From Chloroflexota bacterium (GTDB lineage Bacteria; Chloroflexota; Dehalococcoidia; Lucifugimonadales; Lucifugimonadaceae): 36,654 bases of DNA. The notes under the pieces were generated by a model, which saw nothing but the letters and a program-made list of their open reading frames with translations, was not told the DNA's origin and did no database searches. The translations under genes were made by a program, and so were the position numbers. Location of the stretch: assembly GCA_002721675.1 (NCBI GenBank), contig PBLC01000016.1, forward strand, positions 1 to 36,654, in the 5' to 3' direction. Shown piece by piece: positions 18,605 to 29,550 of this stretch (position 1 is the first letter of the stretch; each line of letters starts with the position of its first letter).

Positions 18605-19354
18605 TTACCTAAAACTATTAAGAACTTTTTTAAAGAATGATTTTTTAGTTTTTATACTATTAAAATTATTTTTATTTATATAATCAATTGCCTTCTCTGC
18701 TGCTCTTTGTTCAGAAATTATTTTTTTAGGACCTTCTGAGGTACTTATTTTGTAATTGTTTATGTATAGATCTGTTTTAAAAATTGGATTATGTGAAGGG
18801 CCAGAAACATTAGATAAAATATATTTTGGGGGATCAAGTGATTCTGCTTGAACCAATTCCTGTAGCATTGATTTAGAATCCTTGTAATTCTTTAATTTCT
18901 CTAAATCTTCTAAAGAATTTTTTAATAAATTAAGTGTAAATTTTTTAACATATTCATAACCTTTATCTAAAAACACAGCACCAATAAATGCTTCCATAGC
19001 GTCAGCCAATGCTGATTCTCTTAGATTTCCGCCTCTATCTAACTCCTCTTTACTCATCCTGATAAAATCATTAAGATTCAAATCTTTTGCTATCTTAGAT
19101 AATGCACTCTCATCAACCAATAATGATCTCTTAGAAGTAAGAATGCCTTCGTTATCGTCTTGATATTTAGAATAAAGATATTCTGAAATTATTAAATCAA
19201 GGATCGAATCCCCCAAAAACTCTAATCGTTGATTATAGTCTTTAATTCTTTTATTTTTTTTCACAAAAAAGGATTTATGTGTAAATGCGCTTTCCAGTAA
19301 ATTTATGTTATTAAAATCAACATTAAGGTTTGATTGGATTTCTTCTAAATTCAT
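18605..19354 (-). CDS. rnc: Ribonuclease III
   Basis: A double-strand-specific endoribonuclease for rRNA and mRNA processing. The catalytic domain has RLEFLGDS with Glu45 and Asp49, and ADAMEAFIGAVFLDKGY with Asp118 and Glu121. A double-stranded-RNA-binding domain covers about residues 155-228 (SKSMLQELVQ through EQRAAEKAIDYI). The length of 249 aa is slightly longer than E. coli RNase III because of a short basic C-terminal tail. An AGGA ribosome-binding site precedes the ATG. It is the first gene of the twelve-gene minus-strand run and is divergent from the CCA-adding enzyme gene. Confidence 0.96.
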   Translation of the reverse strand: MNLEEIQSNLNVDFNNINLLESAFTHKSFFVKKNKRIKDYNQRLEFLGDSILDLIISEYLYSKYQDDNEGILTSKRSLLVDESALSKIAKDLNLNDFIRMSKEELDRGGNLRESALADAMEAFIGAVFLDKGYEYVKKFTLNLLKNSLEDLEKLKNYKDSKSMLQELVQAESLDPPKYILSNVSGPSHNPIFKTDLYINNYKISTSEGPKKIISEQRAAEKAIDYINKNNFNSIKTKKSFFKKVLNSFR

Positions 19355-19387
19355 CTTTATATATCCTAATTAATTTATACATATTAA

Positions 19388-19393
19388 TATAAT
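19388..19393 (+). promoter_or_regulatory. Probable -10 box for the CCA-adding enzyme gene
   Basis: TATAAT within TATAATTAAA lies only 14 bases before the ATG, in a 53-bp divergent gap with rnc. Standard spacing would place the transcript start about 7-9 bases before the start codon, giving an almost leaderless message with no Shine-Dalgarno. No clear -35 element was seen. Confidence 0.45.
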
Positions 19394-19407
19394 TAAAATC
19401 ATACACT

Positions 19408-20616
19408 ATGGAAATAAATAAACTTATAGATAAATATTTACCTGAAATTGAGAAAGAATTCGTTTCAGTCTTGAGTACTTTTGATAGTAATTTATTTGAA
19501 GTTTACTTAGTGGGTGGATCATTAAGAGATATCATTTTAAAAATATCTCCAAATGAAATTGATATATCAATAAAAGGAAACTTTGATTCATTCTTAGATA
19601 ATTTAAATGAAAATTTAAATATTAAAATTGCCCAAAAGACACAATTTGGAACTGCAAAAGTTATATATAAGAAGAAAGAGATTGATGTAGCTAATACAAG
19701 GACAGAGGCATATATACCAAAAGGATCACTTCCAAAAATAAATGAATTATCCGTTGATATAGAAAAAGATTTGGGGAGAAGGGATTTTACTATAAATTCT
19801 ATGGCATACAATTTAAATAATCCTACAAGTAACCAAGTTATAGACCCTTATAATGGATTATTTGATATTAAAAATAAATTAATAAGAAGTATTCACAAAG
19901 ATAGTTTTTCTGATGACCCAACAAGAATATTTAGGGCAATTAAATATTCGTCGAGATTAAGTTTTATTATAGAAAAAGAAACTCTTAAAGAGTTGAAATC
20001 TAAATCAAATTTAATAAATGATTTAACAAGTTCTAGGATTCTTAATGAAATAAAAAAAACATTAGATGAGCCAAATCCGAATCATCTAATCAACAATTTA
20101 ATCAAATTTAATATATTTAAGTACTTCTTTGATGTTAATGACATCAATGTTAATTTCAAAAAAGTACCTCATTCAATATCAAATTACGATTATTTAATAC
20201 TATATTTCACTTATACAAAAGAAGACGGTTTATCAGAATATTTAAATAAATTTGATAATTCTAAATCCTTAAAACTGAAAGTTGATCAGATTAAAAATAT
20301 CAAAGCAGCTATTAATCATATAACTATTAATGAATACAAAAATTTTCCAGAAGATATATATATGAGTATAAAGAATATTCCTACATCGATATTTGAAGTT
20401 TATAAAACTTTTGGTAAATACAAAGAAGTTTTAGCTAATATAATGGAAAAATTATCTAAATCAAAGCCTCAGTTAGATTTTAATGATATGAAAAATTTAG
20501 GTTTTACAAATCCTGCAGAAATTGGAAAATTATTAATAAAAATTGAAATAGCTAAATTTAAAGGGTTAATAGATACAAGATTAGATGAAGAGAATTTTAT
20601 AAAATTAACTAACTAG
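19408..20616 (+). CDS. cca: CCA tRNA nucleotidyltransferase (class II poly(A) polymerase family), with an E-x-D catalytic motif
   Basis: This enzyme adds or repairs the tRNA 3' CCA end. Motifs: YLVGGSLRD at 33-41, catalytic acidic motif at 50-52, third acidic motif EIDVANTRTEAY, RRDFTINSMAYNL, a DPYNGLFDI segment, and DDPTRIFRAIKYSSRL. The first catalytic aspartate of the usual D-x-D is glutamate here (Glu50-Ile-Asp52), and the usual Gly of the LLLG turn is Lys. Together with the degenerate neck region this suggests a fast-evolving or functionally shifted enzyme. The C-terminal half is poorly conserved and shows no clear HD phosphohydrolase motif. A poly(A) polymerase-type activity is an alternative. 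The 402-aa length fits the family. Confidence 0.87.
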   Translation: MEINKLIDKYLPEIEKEFVSVLSTFDSNLFEVYLVGGSLRDIILKISPNEIDISIKGNFDSFLDNLNENLNIKIAQKTQFGTAKVIYKKKEIDVANTRTEAYIPKGSLPKINELSVDIEKDLGRRDFTINSMAYNLNNPTSNQVIDPYNGLFDIKNKLIRSIHKDSFSDDPTRIFRAIKYSSRLSFIIEKETLKELKSKSNLINDLTSSRILNEIKKTLDEPNPNHLINNLIKFNIFKYFFDVNDINVNFKKVPHSISNYDYLILYFTYTKEDGLSEYLNKFDNSKSLKLKVDQIKNIKAAINHITINEYKNFPEDIYMSIKNIPTSIFEVYKTFGKYKEVLANIMEKLSKSKPQLDFNDMKNLGFTNPAEIGKLLIKIEIAKFKGLIDTRLDEENFIKLTN

Positions 20617-25176: not shown

Positions 25177-25567
25177 CAGTTCTTTCAATTAATTGAGGTA
25201 AAAGTAAAGAGGAAATTAAAACATAAAATAATATGTTACCAATTTTGTGAATATTAAAGCGCGCCCCTCTAATTAGTAAAAATATAATATATATAGAGGG
25301 AAAAGAAAGTGCTAAAAAGGAGTAATACACTAATCCTTTAGAATAGTTTCCAATAAAGTACAGATATCCAAAACCCAAAAAAATAAATATAAGCAAAGAG
25401 GATAAATTTATTATAAAAACTGCCAAAATATACACTTTTAAAATTGATATATCTTTATTAAGAAAAAATTTAAATAATGGTGAAGAAGTTTTTGTAAGTA
25501 CAATAGCTGAATATGCTGTCAATATAGAACTGTAAAAAAACGAAACTAAAAATACACTAATTATCAA
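25169..25567 (-). CDS. Small hypothetical membrane protein (four predicted helices)
   Basis: No family was recognised. The protein of about 132 aa is almost entirely hydrophobic, with four predicted membrane segments separated by short basic loops (KDISILK, RGARFNIHKIG). The frame also offers a TTG six bases further upstream. The TTG used here has an AGAGGG ribosome-binding site at ideal seven-base spacing, so it is preferred. It overlaps the end of ispE by 11 bp and is the last gene of the lepA-rsmA-ispE run. Its 3' end overlaps the convergent alcohol dehydrogenase gene by 8 bp. Confidence 0.65.
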   Translation of the reverse strand: MIISVFLVSFFYSSILTAYSAIVLTKTSSPLFKFFLNKDISILKVYILAVFIINLSSLLIFIFLGFGYLYFIGNYSKGLVYYSFLALSFPSIYIIFLLIRGARFNIHKIGNILFYVLISSLLLPQLIERTVN

Positions 25568-26384
25568 TATCAAACCCTCTATCTATTATTGAATATTTTT
25601 GAAAATTAGAAGAACTTACATCTTGATTACTAATTGAAACCAAAATCATGCCAGCGCCAGTAAGAAAACAATTTCCAAATTTTTCTGTCATTTCTTCATG
25701 CTTTATTGAGAGTTTTGGAAATTTTTTAAAGGCTATATTTTGAAAACAATTAAAGTAATCTCCTGATTTTAAGTATTCATTTTTTTGTATTTTTCTTTTA
25801 ACTTTTTGAGTCAAACATCCGTCTGTATAGTCAATCGAATCTATAGACCTAAACATTTTTTTAGTTTTATTTTTTATATCTATTTGGGGGTCATACAAAT
25901 AAACAAATTCATTTCTCAAATTATTTAATTTATAAACCCTTTCACCTAATCCTTCCACAAAACATGTGCCACCTTTAAAGAAAAAAGGCAGGTCTGAGCC
26001 TAATTTAGATGAAAATAACGATAATTCTTCTACTGGAATATTTAACTTTAGAATATTATTTATCCCCATAATTACTGAAGAAGCGTTACTCGAGCCGCCA
26101 CCAAGACCCGATGAAACAGGAATATTTTTAGAAATAACAACTTTAAACGAATCATTTAAGTTATAGGCACGTTTAAAATTCTTTATAGCTTTATAAACAA
26201 TATTATCTTCTTCAGCAATCAACCCGCTACCCATATCCACAGAGTCCTTATCTGATTCTTTTATGGTAATTTCATCTCTTAGGCTAATATTTTGATATAT
26301 ACCTCTAAGGTCATGATATCCATTTTTTAGTTTAGACAATATCTCAATTACTAAATTTATTTTTGCATAAGAATATATTTTCAT
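25557..26384 (-). CDS. ispE: 4-diphosphocytidyl-2-C-methyl-D-erythritol kinase
   Basis: This GHMP kinase phosphorylates CDP-methylerythritol in the non-mevalonate isoprenoid pathway. Visible signatures are the N-terminal AKINLVIEIL with Lys8, the ATP-binding glycine loop PVSSGLGGGSSNAS at 89-102, and the catalytic aspartate Asp131 in GSDLPFFF. The length of 275 aa is typical. It overlaps rsmA by four bases (ATGA), an rsmA-ispE order common in bacteria. It indicates that isoprenoids are made from pyruvate and glyceraldehyde phosphate in this organism. Confidence 0.95.
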   Translation of the reverse strand: MKIYSYAKINLVIEILSKLKNGYHDLRGIYQNISLRDEITIKESDKDSVDMGSGLIAEEDNIVYKAIKNFKRAYNLNDSFKVVISKNIPVSSGLGGGSSNASSVIMGINNILKLNIPVEELSLFSSKLGSDLPFFFKGGTCFVEGLGERVYKLNNLRNEFVYLYDPQIDIKNKTKKMFRSIDSIDYTDGCLTQKVKRKIQKNEYLKSGDYFNCFQNIAFKKFPKLSIKHEEMTEKFGNCFLTGAGMILVSISNQDVSSSNFQKYSIIDRGFDIDN

Positions 26385-27178
26385 AATTCATTAATTTTAT
26401 TGAATATTTTTTGCCAGTCATCAATCTCTATGTTTCCAGGTCTTAGGTCAGGATCAATACCTATCCCAATTAATTGACTTTTTAATATATCTTTTTCAAT
26501 TTTTAAAGACATTGATAGCGAATTTATTAATGTCTTTCTTGGCGCTTTATAACCTTTTTTTATAAAACTTAATAGTGTTTCAGGTTCATCTACTATTATA
26601 TTTTCTTCTTTGGTTTCTAGTAAAATTATCGATGAAATTACCTTTGGAATTGGTTCAAATGCTTCTTTTGGGACATCTATAATTTTTTTAACTTTTGAAT
26701 ACATTTGAATCGAGTGTCCAATAAATTTCATTTTTGGAATTACTGATAAATAATTATCTGCAACTTCTTTTTGTATCATTACAATTAAATATTTAGGTTT
26801 TTTTACAGAGGTAATGAAATTCCTTACAATCATATTTGCTGAATAATATGGCAAATTTCCTACTAATAAATACGGACCATTGAACATTTCATCTTCATCA
26901 TCTATTTTATATAGCGCTGCATCTATATTAAAAAATCTTACCTTATCTTCTTGATGTTTATTTATTAAATTTATATATAACTTTTTATCAAGTTCAATCC
27001 CTATAAATTCCTCAGAATATCTTATTAAGTCAGATGTTATTGACCCTGATCCAGGGCCAATCTCTAATATATTTTTTAATCCAAGATCCTTAACGCAATC
27101 AACAATTATTGCTTTATACTTTGGATCTACTAAAAAATGTTGTCCTAATTTAGGCTTCTTCGTACTACTTTGCTTCAT
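26381..27178 (-). CDS. rsmA: 16S rRNA (adenine(1518)-N(6)/adenine(1519)-N(6))-dimethyltransferase
   Basis: The KsgA/RsmA enzyme that dimethylates two adjacent adenines near the 3' end of 16S rRNA late in 30S assembly. The conserved start KPKLGQHFLVDP, the SAM-binding LEIGPGSGSIT (38-48) with acidic Glu62, and the catalytic NLPYYSA (108-114) are all present. A C-terminal helical domain follows. The length of 265 aa is typical. It overlaps the end of lepA by 14 bp and is coupled to ispE by an ATGA. Confidence 0.96.
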   Translation of the reverse strand: MKQSSTKKPKLGQHFLVDPKYKAIIVDCVKDLGLKNILEIGPGSGSITSDLIRYSEEFIGIELDKKLYINLINKHQEDKVRFFNIDAALYKIDDEDEMFNGPYLLVGNLPYYSANMIVRNFITSVKKPKYLIVMIQKEVADNYLSVIPKMKFIGHSIQMYSKVKKIIDVPKEAFEPIPKVISSIILLETKEENIIVDEPETLLSFIKKGYKAPRKTLINSLSMSLKIEKDILKSQLIGIGIDPDLRPGNIEIDDWQKIFNKINEL

Positions 27179-28991
27179 TTTTTAACACTGCCATAAAAGC
27201 TTCCTGAGGAACTTCAACAGAGCCGAGTTTCTTCATTCTTTTTTTTCCTTCAGCTTGCTTCTGTAATAATTTCCTTTTTCTAGATATATCTCCACCATAG
27301 CATTTTGCAGTAACGTTTTTCCTTAAAGCCTTAACAGTCTCTCTTGAAATAATCTTGCTCCCGACTGCTGCCTGAATTGGTATGTCAAATAATTGCCTTG
27401 GAATAAGTTCTTTTAATTTTGAAACTAATTGCCTACCTATTATCAGAGAATTTTCTGAATGAACTATGATAGAAAGGGCATCGACTTTCTCTTCATTAAC
27501 AAGAATTTGCAATTTAACTAATTTCTCATCTTTAGGATCGGTTAACTGGTAATCCATAGAAGCATATCCTTTTGTTGAAGATTTTAATTGGCTATGAAAA
27601 TCAGTTAGTATCTCAGCTAAAGGCATATTAAATTCTAATAAAACCCTTTGATTCTCTGAATTTGAACCTTCTCCTCCACCTTGTAACCATTCCATTTTTT
27701 TGTATTCACCTCTTTTAGAAACTACTATATCGATTACTGGACCTATAAATTTTGACGGACATAATATTGATAAATCCACAAATGGTTCTAATACTTTTTG
27801 AATCTTTTCATCTTCCGGCCATTTAGAAGGGTCATCAACATCGATTACTTTGCCTGATATAGTTTCTACAGTATATTTTACGGTAGGAGCAGTAACGATT
27901 AAATCAAGCCCATACTCTCTTTCCAGTCTTTCCTGAATAATATCCATATGCAGAAGACCCAAAAAACCACACCTAAACCCAAAACCTAGAGCACCAGAAC
28001 TTTCTGGTTCAAAAATCAATGAGGCATCATTTAGTTGAAGTTTACCCAACGCATCTCGTAAATCTGAATAGTCATCTCCGTCTGTAGGATAAAGCCCACT
28101 AAACACCATTGGTTTTGCCGACTCGTAACCTTTTAGTGCTTCGGTGGAGGGATTCTCTTTAATAGTTAATGTCTCTCCAACTCTGCAATCAGCAACATTT
28201 TTTAAACCAGTAGCAACATAACCTACTTCCCCAATAGTTAATTTATCTATCTCATTAAGATTTGGCTCAAAGATTCCTACCTCATTCGCCTCTACAATTT
28301 TATTCGTAGACATCAACATTAAATTGTCATCTTTTCTTAATTCGCCATTTACTAATCTTATATAAGCTATTACTCCTTTAAATTGATCATATTTTGAATC
28401 AAACACCAAGGCTTGCATAGGATTTTTAATATCTCCAGAAGGAGGAGGTATTTTTTTAATAACATGCTCTATTAAATCTTCTACACCTTCACCAGTTTTT
28501 GCAGATACTTTTAGTATCTCATTTTCACTAAAACCTAAAGATGAATTTATTTCACTCATGACCCTGTCGACTTGAGCGTTAGGTGAATCAATTTTATTAA
28601 GTACTGGAATAATTACCACATTTTGTTCTATTGCAAGATAAACGTTCGCTAATGTTTGTGCCTGAATTCCTTGAGTGCAATCAATTAATAAAAGTGCTCC
28701 TTCACATGCAGCAAGAGATCTTGATACTTCATAATTAAAATCCACATGGCCAGGTGTATCTATTAAATTTAACTGAAAGTTTGTAGGTCCTGACTTATAA
28801 TTCAACCTCATTGCCTGAGCTTTTATGGTAATTCCTCTTTCTTTTTCAAGATCCATAGTATCCAGCAATTGATCCTCAGTTTCTCCTCTTTTTTTACCTA
28901 ATGAAATATCAATGAGTCTATCAGCTAAAGTAGATTTGCCATGATCAATATGTGCAATAATTGAAAAATTTCTTATATATTTCTTATCCAT
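27165..28991 (-). CDS. lepA: Elongation factor 4 (LepA), translational GTPase
   Basis: A ribosome-associated GTPase implicated in back-translocation and ribosome assembly. From the chosen start it has G1 AHIDHGKST at 13-21, DTPGHVDF, NKID, elongation-factor domains II, III and V, and the LepA-specific C-terminal domain (KCYGGDISRKRKLLQKQAEG). The 608-aa length is standard. The frame stays open 45 bases further upstream, but those codons are the tRNA-Leu gene read through, so the ATG beginning MDKKYIRNFS is the true start. Only three bases separate it from the encoded CCA of the tRNA, leaving no room for a Shine-Dalgarno after tRNA processing. Confidence 0.97.
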   Translation of the reverse strand: MDKKYIRNFSIIAHIDHGKSTLADRLIDISLGKKRGETEDQLLDTMDLEKERGITIKAQAMRLNYKSGPTNFQLNLIDTPGHVDFNYEVSRSLAACEGALLLIDCTQGIQAQTLANVYLAIEQNVVIIPVLNKIDSPNAQVDRVMSEINSSLGFSENEILKVSAKTGEGVEDLIEHVIKKIPPPSGDIKNPMQALVFDSKYDQFKGVIAYIRLVNGELRKDDNLMLMSTNKIVEANEVGIFEPNLNEIDKLTIGEVGYVATGLKNVADCRVGETLTIKENPSTEALKGYESAKPMVFSGLYPTDGDDYSDLRDALGKLQLNDASLIFEPESSGALGFGFRCGFLGLLHMDIIQERLEREYGLDLIVTAPTVKYTVETISGKVIDVDDPSKWPEDEKIQKVLEPFVDLSILCPSKFIGPVIDIVVSKRGEYKKMEWLQGGGEGSNSENQRVLLEFNMPLAEILTDFHSQLKSSTKGYASMDYQLTDPKDEKLVKLQILVNEEKVDALSIIVHSENSLIIGRQLVSKLKELIPRQLFDIPIQAAVGSKIISRETVKALRKNVTAKCYGGDISRKRKLLQKQAEGKKRMKKLGSVEVPQEAFMAVLKNEAK

Positions 28992-28994
28992 AAA

Positions 28995-29078
28995 TGGTGG
29001 GGGAGAAAGGAGTCGAACCTTCACGCCTTGCGGCACATGCTCCTAAGGCATGCGTGTCTGCCATTTCACCACTCCCCC
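28995..29078 (-). tRNA. tRNA-Leu (anticodon UAG), CCA encoded
   Basis: A complete 84-nt class II tRNA. It has a perfect seven-pair acceptor stem (GGGGGAG with CTCCCCC), a three-pair D stem, a five-pair anticodon stem (CATGC/GCATG) around the loop CTTAGGA with anticodon UAG at 29043-29045, a 13-nt variable arm with a GCC-GCAA-GGC hairpin, a T arm with TTCGA, discriminator A73, and an encoded CCA. The long variable arm and A73 confirm leucine identity. It lies just upstream of lepA in the same direction. Confidence 0.97.
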
Positions 29079-29101: not shown

Positions 29102-29110
29102 ATTATAACA
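29102..29110 (-). promoter_or_regulatory. Extended -10 promoter of the tRNA-Leu-lepA run
   Basis: On the minus strand the sequence reads TGTTATAAT, a perfect extended -10 element (TG-N-TATAAT). It lies about 24 bases before the first tRNA nucleotide, in the short gap after the hypothetical 139-aa gene. No good -35 is visible, as expected for an extended -10 promoter. Initiation would fall near base 29095, giving a short tRNA 5' leader for RNase P. Confidence 0.7.
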
Positions 29111-29130: not shown

Positions 29131-29550
29131 TTATGGAAGGAAATCAAGTATATACAAAGTTTTTCCATTAGGGCCAATAAACTTTATAGATTCCTCGCTT
29201 TGAATATGAAATCTAGCCTTTTCAGTTAAATAAAATAAGGGGTCACCCTGAACATTTATCTCCTTTTTTATTATAGAAATATCTAATTCTGGGTACTTAA
29301 TGCTTACCAATTTGTTTGAAATTAATAATTCGAGCCCTTCTTCTAGTAATTGGCTAACCTGAAAATCTATATCTCTGGAATTTAAAATTTGATTATCTGG
29401 ATCGTATTTACTGTAAGTATTTTTAATTCTTGAAATAACGTTTTCTTTTATAATTATTGAGCCTATAGGTTCTTTTTGAAAAACTAAAAATTGAAGTATA
29501 GGCCTAAATAACTCATTGACTCTTAAAGGGTTGGAAAATTCGAAATTCAA
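29131..29550 (-). CDS. Hypothetical protein, possibly winged-helix-like
   Basis: A 139-aa protein of no recognised family. It has a helical N-terminal half (VNELFRPILQFLV), an acidic helix (QVSQLLEEGLELLISNKLVSI), and a C-terminal strand-turn-strand with DPLFYLTEKARFHIQ, reminiscent of the wing and final helix of a winged-helix domain. Its ATG overlaps the panB stop by four bases (ATGA), so it is translated with panB. A role in pantothenate metabolism is not implied by anything else in the sequence. Confidence 0.75.
   Translation of the reverse strand: MNFEFSNPLRVNELFRPILQFLVFQKEPIGSIIIKENVISRIKNTYSKYDPDNQILNSRDIDFQVSQLLEEGLELLISNKLVSIKYPELDISIIKKEINVQGDPLFYLTEKARFHIQSEESIKFIGPNGKTLYILDFLP

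Follow-up and report, generated by a model that had tools for sequence, protein, structure and literature searches.

In tRNA-mRNA operons of the E. coli type, such as thrU-tyrU-glyT-thrT-tufB, the message keeps a leader carrying a Shine-Dalgarno (SD) sequence after the tRNAs are removed. In animal mitochondria, tRNA genes abut start codons, and excision of the tRNAs yields near-leaderless messages that are read without an SD. Leaderless mRNAs can also be made by promoters, as in Actinobacteria, Deinococcus-Thermus, and some Chloroflexi, with no SD and with a 5' end that lies at the AUG or close to it (PMC3160421). By the usual definition, an mRNA is leaderless when its leader is 8 to 10 nt or less (PMC4247193, PMC4681348), and a survey of 12 Chloroflexi genomes found leaderless genes in 4 of them, at 4 to 6% (PMC3160421).

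The junction described here lies between tRNA-Leu(UAG) and lepA on the minus strand of a 36,654-nt stretch of DNA (the window) from a streamlined marine SAR202 Chloroflexota MAG. It resembles E. coli-type operons in that a tRNA and a translation-factor gene would share one transcript, but it has no room for an SD leader. It resembles promoter-made leaderless mRNAs, an arrangement also found at lepA of related SAR202 members, in having no SD and a predicted 5' end at or close to the AUG, but in this genus that end would come from RNA processing. By analogy, the closest working parallel is mitochondrial tRNA punctuation, although here only a handful of bacterial chromosomal genes are involved, CCA is encoded, no canonical RNase Z was found, and the processing is predicted. 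In the open-access literature we found no report of tRNA-processed leaderless mRNAs in bacteria and none of leaderless genes in SAR202, and the term tRNA punctuation appeared in one paper on bacteria, within the title of a reference; such silence is weak evidence of novelty.

The tRNA-Leu/lepA junction

The window belongs to an assembly of 981 kb that is 77% complete (33% GC over the stretches fetched), and its closest relatives are MAGs of Dehalococcoidia/SAR202. The minus strand runs ...CTCCCCCACCA at the end of the tRNA, then TTT, then ATGGATAAG at the start of lepA. An earlier sequence-only reading had placed the CCA of tRNA-Leu three bases from the lepA ATG, and this proved exact: positions 28985-29078 span the whole tRNA plus the spacer and the opening codons of lepA, with the two genes on the same strand (Table 1). 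ARAGORN found this tRNA as the single one in the window and, when run on loci of the genus, read its anticodon as UAG. The lepA start call is sound because of the N-terminal sequence (MDKKYIRNFSIIAHIDHGKS; the protein starts MDKKYIRNFSIIAHIDHG) and because relatives use the same ATG. A LepA with extra N-terminal residues, begun at a GTG or ATG of the same frame within the tRNA, is very improbable: the frame is open from a GTG at 29036, and an AGGAG in the anticodon arm lies about 3 nt before it, but that spacing is too short, the tRNA has other constraints on its sequence, and the extension is missing from relatives that lack the tRNA.

Table 1. Features at and around the tRNA-Leu/lepA junction, in window coordinates
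Feature	Position	Strand	Evidence or remark
Upstream co-directional ORF	29131..29550	-	No family match
Extended -10 element TGTTATAAT (TATAAT 29107-29102)	29102..29110	-	Sequence motif; kept in L021 and L022
tRNA-Leu(UAG)	28995..29078	-	ARAGORN; Rfam RF00005, 55.9 bits
Encoded CCA of tRNA-Leu(UAG)	28997-28995	-	
TTT spacer, 3 nt, CCA to ATG	28992..28994	-	Leaves no room for a Shine-Dalgarno
ATG of lepA	28991-28989	-	
lepA (elongation factor 4), 608 aa	27165..28991	-	NCBIfam TIGR01393, full-length match, 911.6 bits (cut-off 533.9)
ksgA/rsmA-like gene	26381..27178	-	Best family TIGR00755, 163.2 bits (cut-off 171)
ispE	25557..26384	-	TIGR00154, 150.8 bits (above cut-off 138.7)

An extended -10 promoter had also been proposed for the tRNA and lepA together. 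The motif itself stood up, as TGTTATAAT sits 23 nt upstream of tRNA-Leu and is retained in the two closest relatives, but its standing as a promoter is less secure: lone matches are weak evidence because the genome has 33% GC, and the search found 7 promoter matches where shuffles gave 5.2. On the basis of this one conserved motif, we regard TGTTATAAT as the probable promoter of a tRNA-Leu/lepA transcript. The co-directional ORF upstream terminates 52 nt before tRNA-Leu. Downstream, the ksgA-like gene shares 14 nt with the 3' end of lepA, in an order conserved in L050 and L051, and ispE, which overlaps the ksgA-like gene by 4 nt, is apparently in the same operon. Given these overlaps, tRNA-Leu appears to head a compact operon, and the tRNA would be transcribed as one unit with lepA, ksgA, and ispE.

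Among five members of the genus, whose LepA identity ranges between 67 and 100%, the gap between tRNA and lepA is 3, 3, 3, 9, and 9 nt. The 3-nt spacer is CTT in G002 and G006 (90 to 92% LepA identity), and the 9-nt gaps belong to G007 and G008 (67%). Outside the genus, tRNA-Leu(UAG) stands 82 to 111 nt before the aligned lepA start in L058, L059, and L061 and at a comparable distance, about 80 to 110 nt, in L049 from another family of the order. No tRNA precedes lepA at the other 24 lepA loci from relatives outside the genus (flank normally 1.5 kb) or within 700 nt upstream in the distant bacterial loci L062-L129. A longer gap in relatives, named beforehand as evidence against the reading, thus turns up only outside the genus, and the tight joint characterizes this genus.

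Neighboring genes lie close together throughout this genome, which counts against the explanation by tRNA processing that we develop below. With about 480 genes whose starts lie 60 nt or less from a gene of the same direction, the short gap could simply result from genome compaction and leave lepA expression unaffected. We consider this improbable, since a protein-coding neighbor can hold an SD but the 3' end of a tRNA cannot, and the joint forces a non-SD start.

Initiation signals at lepA

Across the five genus members, no SD-like motif lies nearer than about -37 of the lepA ATG, as predicted from the window and as is typical of leaderless mRNAs. Nor does any of the five have a TANNNT in the 60 nt upstream of the ATG, which leaves them without the -10 element 6 to 9 nt before the start that marks promoter-made leaderless genes; a promoter scan of the minus strand of the window also found no promoter in the last 60 nt before lepA. 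These results bear on one rival in particular. A lepA promoter inside the tRNA gene would make the message leaderless by transcription, independently of tRNA processing, and most relatives do appear to have a promoter-made leaderless lepA. With no -10 within 60 nt in five species and none in the scan, such an internal promoter is, if anything, slightly less probable than the compaction account.

Other members of the order already show a lepA that looks leaderless. At order lepA starts without an abutting tRNA, TANNNT begins at -15 to -13 in 23 of 36 (shuffle control: mean 2.6, maximum 10 in 2,000) and an SD-like motif is present in 2 of 36, in a set whose effective number is somewhat lower because of near-duplicates (L025/L053, L055/L056). 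The simplest reading seems to be that a leaderless lepA predates the tRNA joint and that a promoter-made leaderless end was replaced by a tRNA end in this genus. Relatives would make lepA leaderless from its own promoter; here that promoter would be gone, with the tRNA end as its substitute.

Genome-wide signals are less clear. Based on crude start calls, TANNNT at -15 to -12 occurs 125 times in G000 against a background of 121, a weak signal that counts against the processing explanation, and the leaderless signal in G036 is moderate (21 against 11). We therefore do not extend the leaderless reading to the majority of genes. GGAG-type SDs precede 196 of 678 G000 genes, and many genes have no SD.

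Processing of the precursor

In G002, a more complete sister genome (89%), the UAG anticodon occurs on a single tRNA-Leu, and none of the 31 tRNAs found is a CAG isoacceptor, so the precursor must be processed. The enzyme named beforehand, RNase Z, found no backing in these genomes: 0 of 60 from the order (31 near-complete) have a protein over the TIGR02651 cut-off, compared to 9 of 14 controls. Some members encode divergent metallo-beta-lactamase proteins scoring 120 to 137 bits against the RNase Z cut-off of 293; such paralogues, about 290 aa long (L240, L242), are the only RNase Z candidates, and an unusual RNase Z could be among them. RNase E/G exceeds its cut-off in 0 of 10 genus members, RNase PH is found in 5 of 10, and RNase Y is present in G000. 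The window encodes RNase III and a CCA-adding-enzyme-like protein (147 bits, cut-off 290), whose genes adjoin divergently at 18605-20616. Of the tRNAs examined across the order, a single one does not encode CCA, and it is truncated by a contig end.

We lean toward a lepA message made leaderless by tRNA processing as the best explanation of this locus. An enzyme distinct from canonical RNase Z would cut in or beside the spacer, which would free the tRNA and leave lepA with a leader of about 0 to 5 nt. P. acnes, which has no obvious RNase Z, cuts a few nucleotides downstream of the CCA or within it (PMC3848588). Here, cleavage right after the CCA would produce UUUAUG, and one inside the CCA, as in P. 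acnes, would leave at most 5 nt; with either cut site, lepA would be leaderless by the usual definition, and its message would be translated as a leaderless mRNA. That lepA is leaderless, by whatever route, appears likely from its sequence context.

According to pairing probabilities, the 5' end of the processed lepA message is open, unlike that of the unprocessed RNA, where nucleotides -14 to -8 from the AUG lie in the acceptor stem with an unpaired probability of 0.02 or less. These positions fall inside the expected 30S footprint, and a 30S subunit would presumably be unable to bind there before the tRNA has been excised or its fold opened.

An alternative that we rate as unlikely, yet well ahead of the other rivals, is that each transcript serves either as tRNA or as message. 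The nuclease that releases the tRNA would cut slightly downstream of it, inside lepA, and RNase PH would trim the tRNA, so that LepA would be made only from precursors that escape; the tRNA would then act as a structured leader, with AU-rich, SD-independent initiation at lepA. Because canonical RNase Z and RNase E/G were not found and RNase Y and RNase PH are present, 3' maturation may consist of an imprecise cut followed by trimming, a route that does not guarantee an intact 5' end for lepA and so counts against the processing explanation. The P. acnes cuts and the many G000 genes without an SD fit this alternative as well. It is opposed by the acceptor stem, which would lie inside the 30S footprint in the unprocessed RNA; by the cost of a lost 5' end, which would extend to ksgA and ispE downstream of lepA; and by the intact ATGs that both lepA and thrS keep right at a tRNA end across several species.

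The same joint at other genes

The gap between tRNA-Val(GAC) and thrS is 2 to 6 nt in seven genus members. It is about 77 nt in the deeper-branching G007, and in several larger-genome relatives tRNA-Val stands 226 to 374 nt before a coding motif near the thrS start; GGAG-type SDs are found on a number of larger-genome relatives' thrS genes. The thrS start mode varies between genera, with SDs in larger-genome genera and a leaderless-type -10 (TAGAAT/TAAAAT) 9 nt before the ATG in genus g5 (L256, L259, L260).

Gaps between tRNA-Glu(UUC) and an amidohydrolase gene are 3, 6, 3, 6, and 8 nt in the genus. An identical tRNA-Glu(UUC)/CCAAATATG junction occurs at the left ends of G000 contigs C9 and C20, which suggests one locus split or duplicated by assembly. 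G002 adds tRNA-Arg(UCU) and tRNA-Ser(UGA), each 10 nt before an ORF (aminotransferase-like and epimerase-like, respectively, named by eye). When all tRNA-gene pairs of G000 and G002 with gaps of 3 to 10 nt are taken together, no SD is present in any case, and at gaps of 20 to 32 nt a GGAG/AGGA-type SD lies in the spacer in 6 of 6. Start codons of genes other than lepA and thrS are taken from sequence only, and the genomes are incomplete MAGs.

Another genus of the family, g10, has a gap of exactly 10 nt between tRNA-Arg(CCG) and the ATG of a large ORF, seen in 7 of 7 genomes (L336-L340, L135, L136). The spacers are fixed in length and unrelated in sequence (average identity, 35%), and the ORF, nuclease-like by eye, spans at least 501 codons at loci of sufficient length.

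Raw counts of the pattern tRNA 3' end, CCA, N0-12, and ATG in 76 genomes gave many matches and were set aside as evidence, because chance ATGs are expected (about 45 tRNAs in AT-rich genomes) and tRNA-tRNA spacers contribute. Only matches with a real ORF were retained; a G010 match with a 1-nt gap was discarded, as it opens just 45 codons.

The arrangement is shared by thrS, the amidohydrolase gene, and other genes, which argues against the dedicated link between tRNA maturation and LepA synthesis that the sequence-only reading had suggested. If the joint between a tRNA and a start codon arose at several other genes of the genus, it would reflect genome streamlining together with tolerance of leaderless initiation, not a switch built for LepA. 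More tentatively, and at somewhat less than even confidence, we propose that these are free-living bacteria with mitochondria-like tRNA punctuation, in which a cut by an enzyme other than RNase Z sets the leaderless 5' ends of several genes, including lepA and thrS, and in which the promoter or SD-bearing leader was lost at those genes.

If true, this proposal would pose the problem of how a group without a recognizable RNase Z forms the 3' ends of its tRNAs, and it would tie the supply of a single-copy tRNA to the expression of an operon of translation and isoprenoid genes. It would also provide a bacterial parallel of mitochondrial tRNA punctuation, reached via genome streamlining, and would mean that leaderless 5' ends can move from promoter control to RNA processing while the mode of translation stays unchanged.
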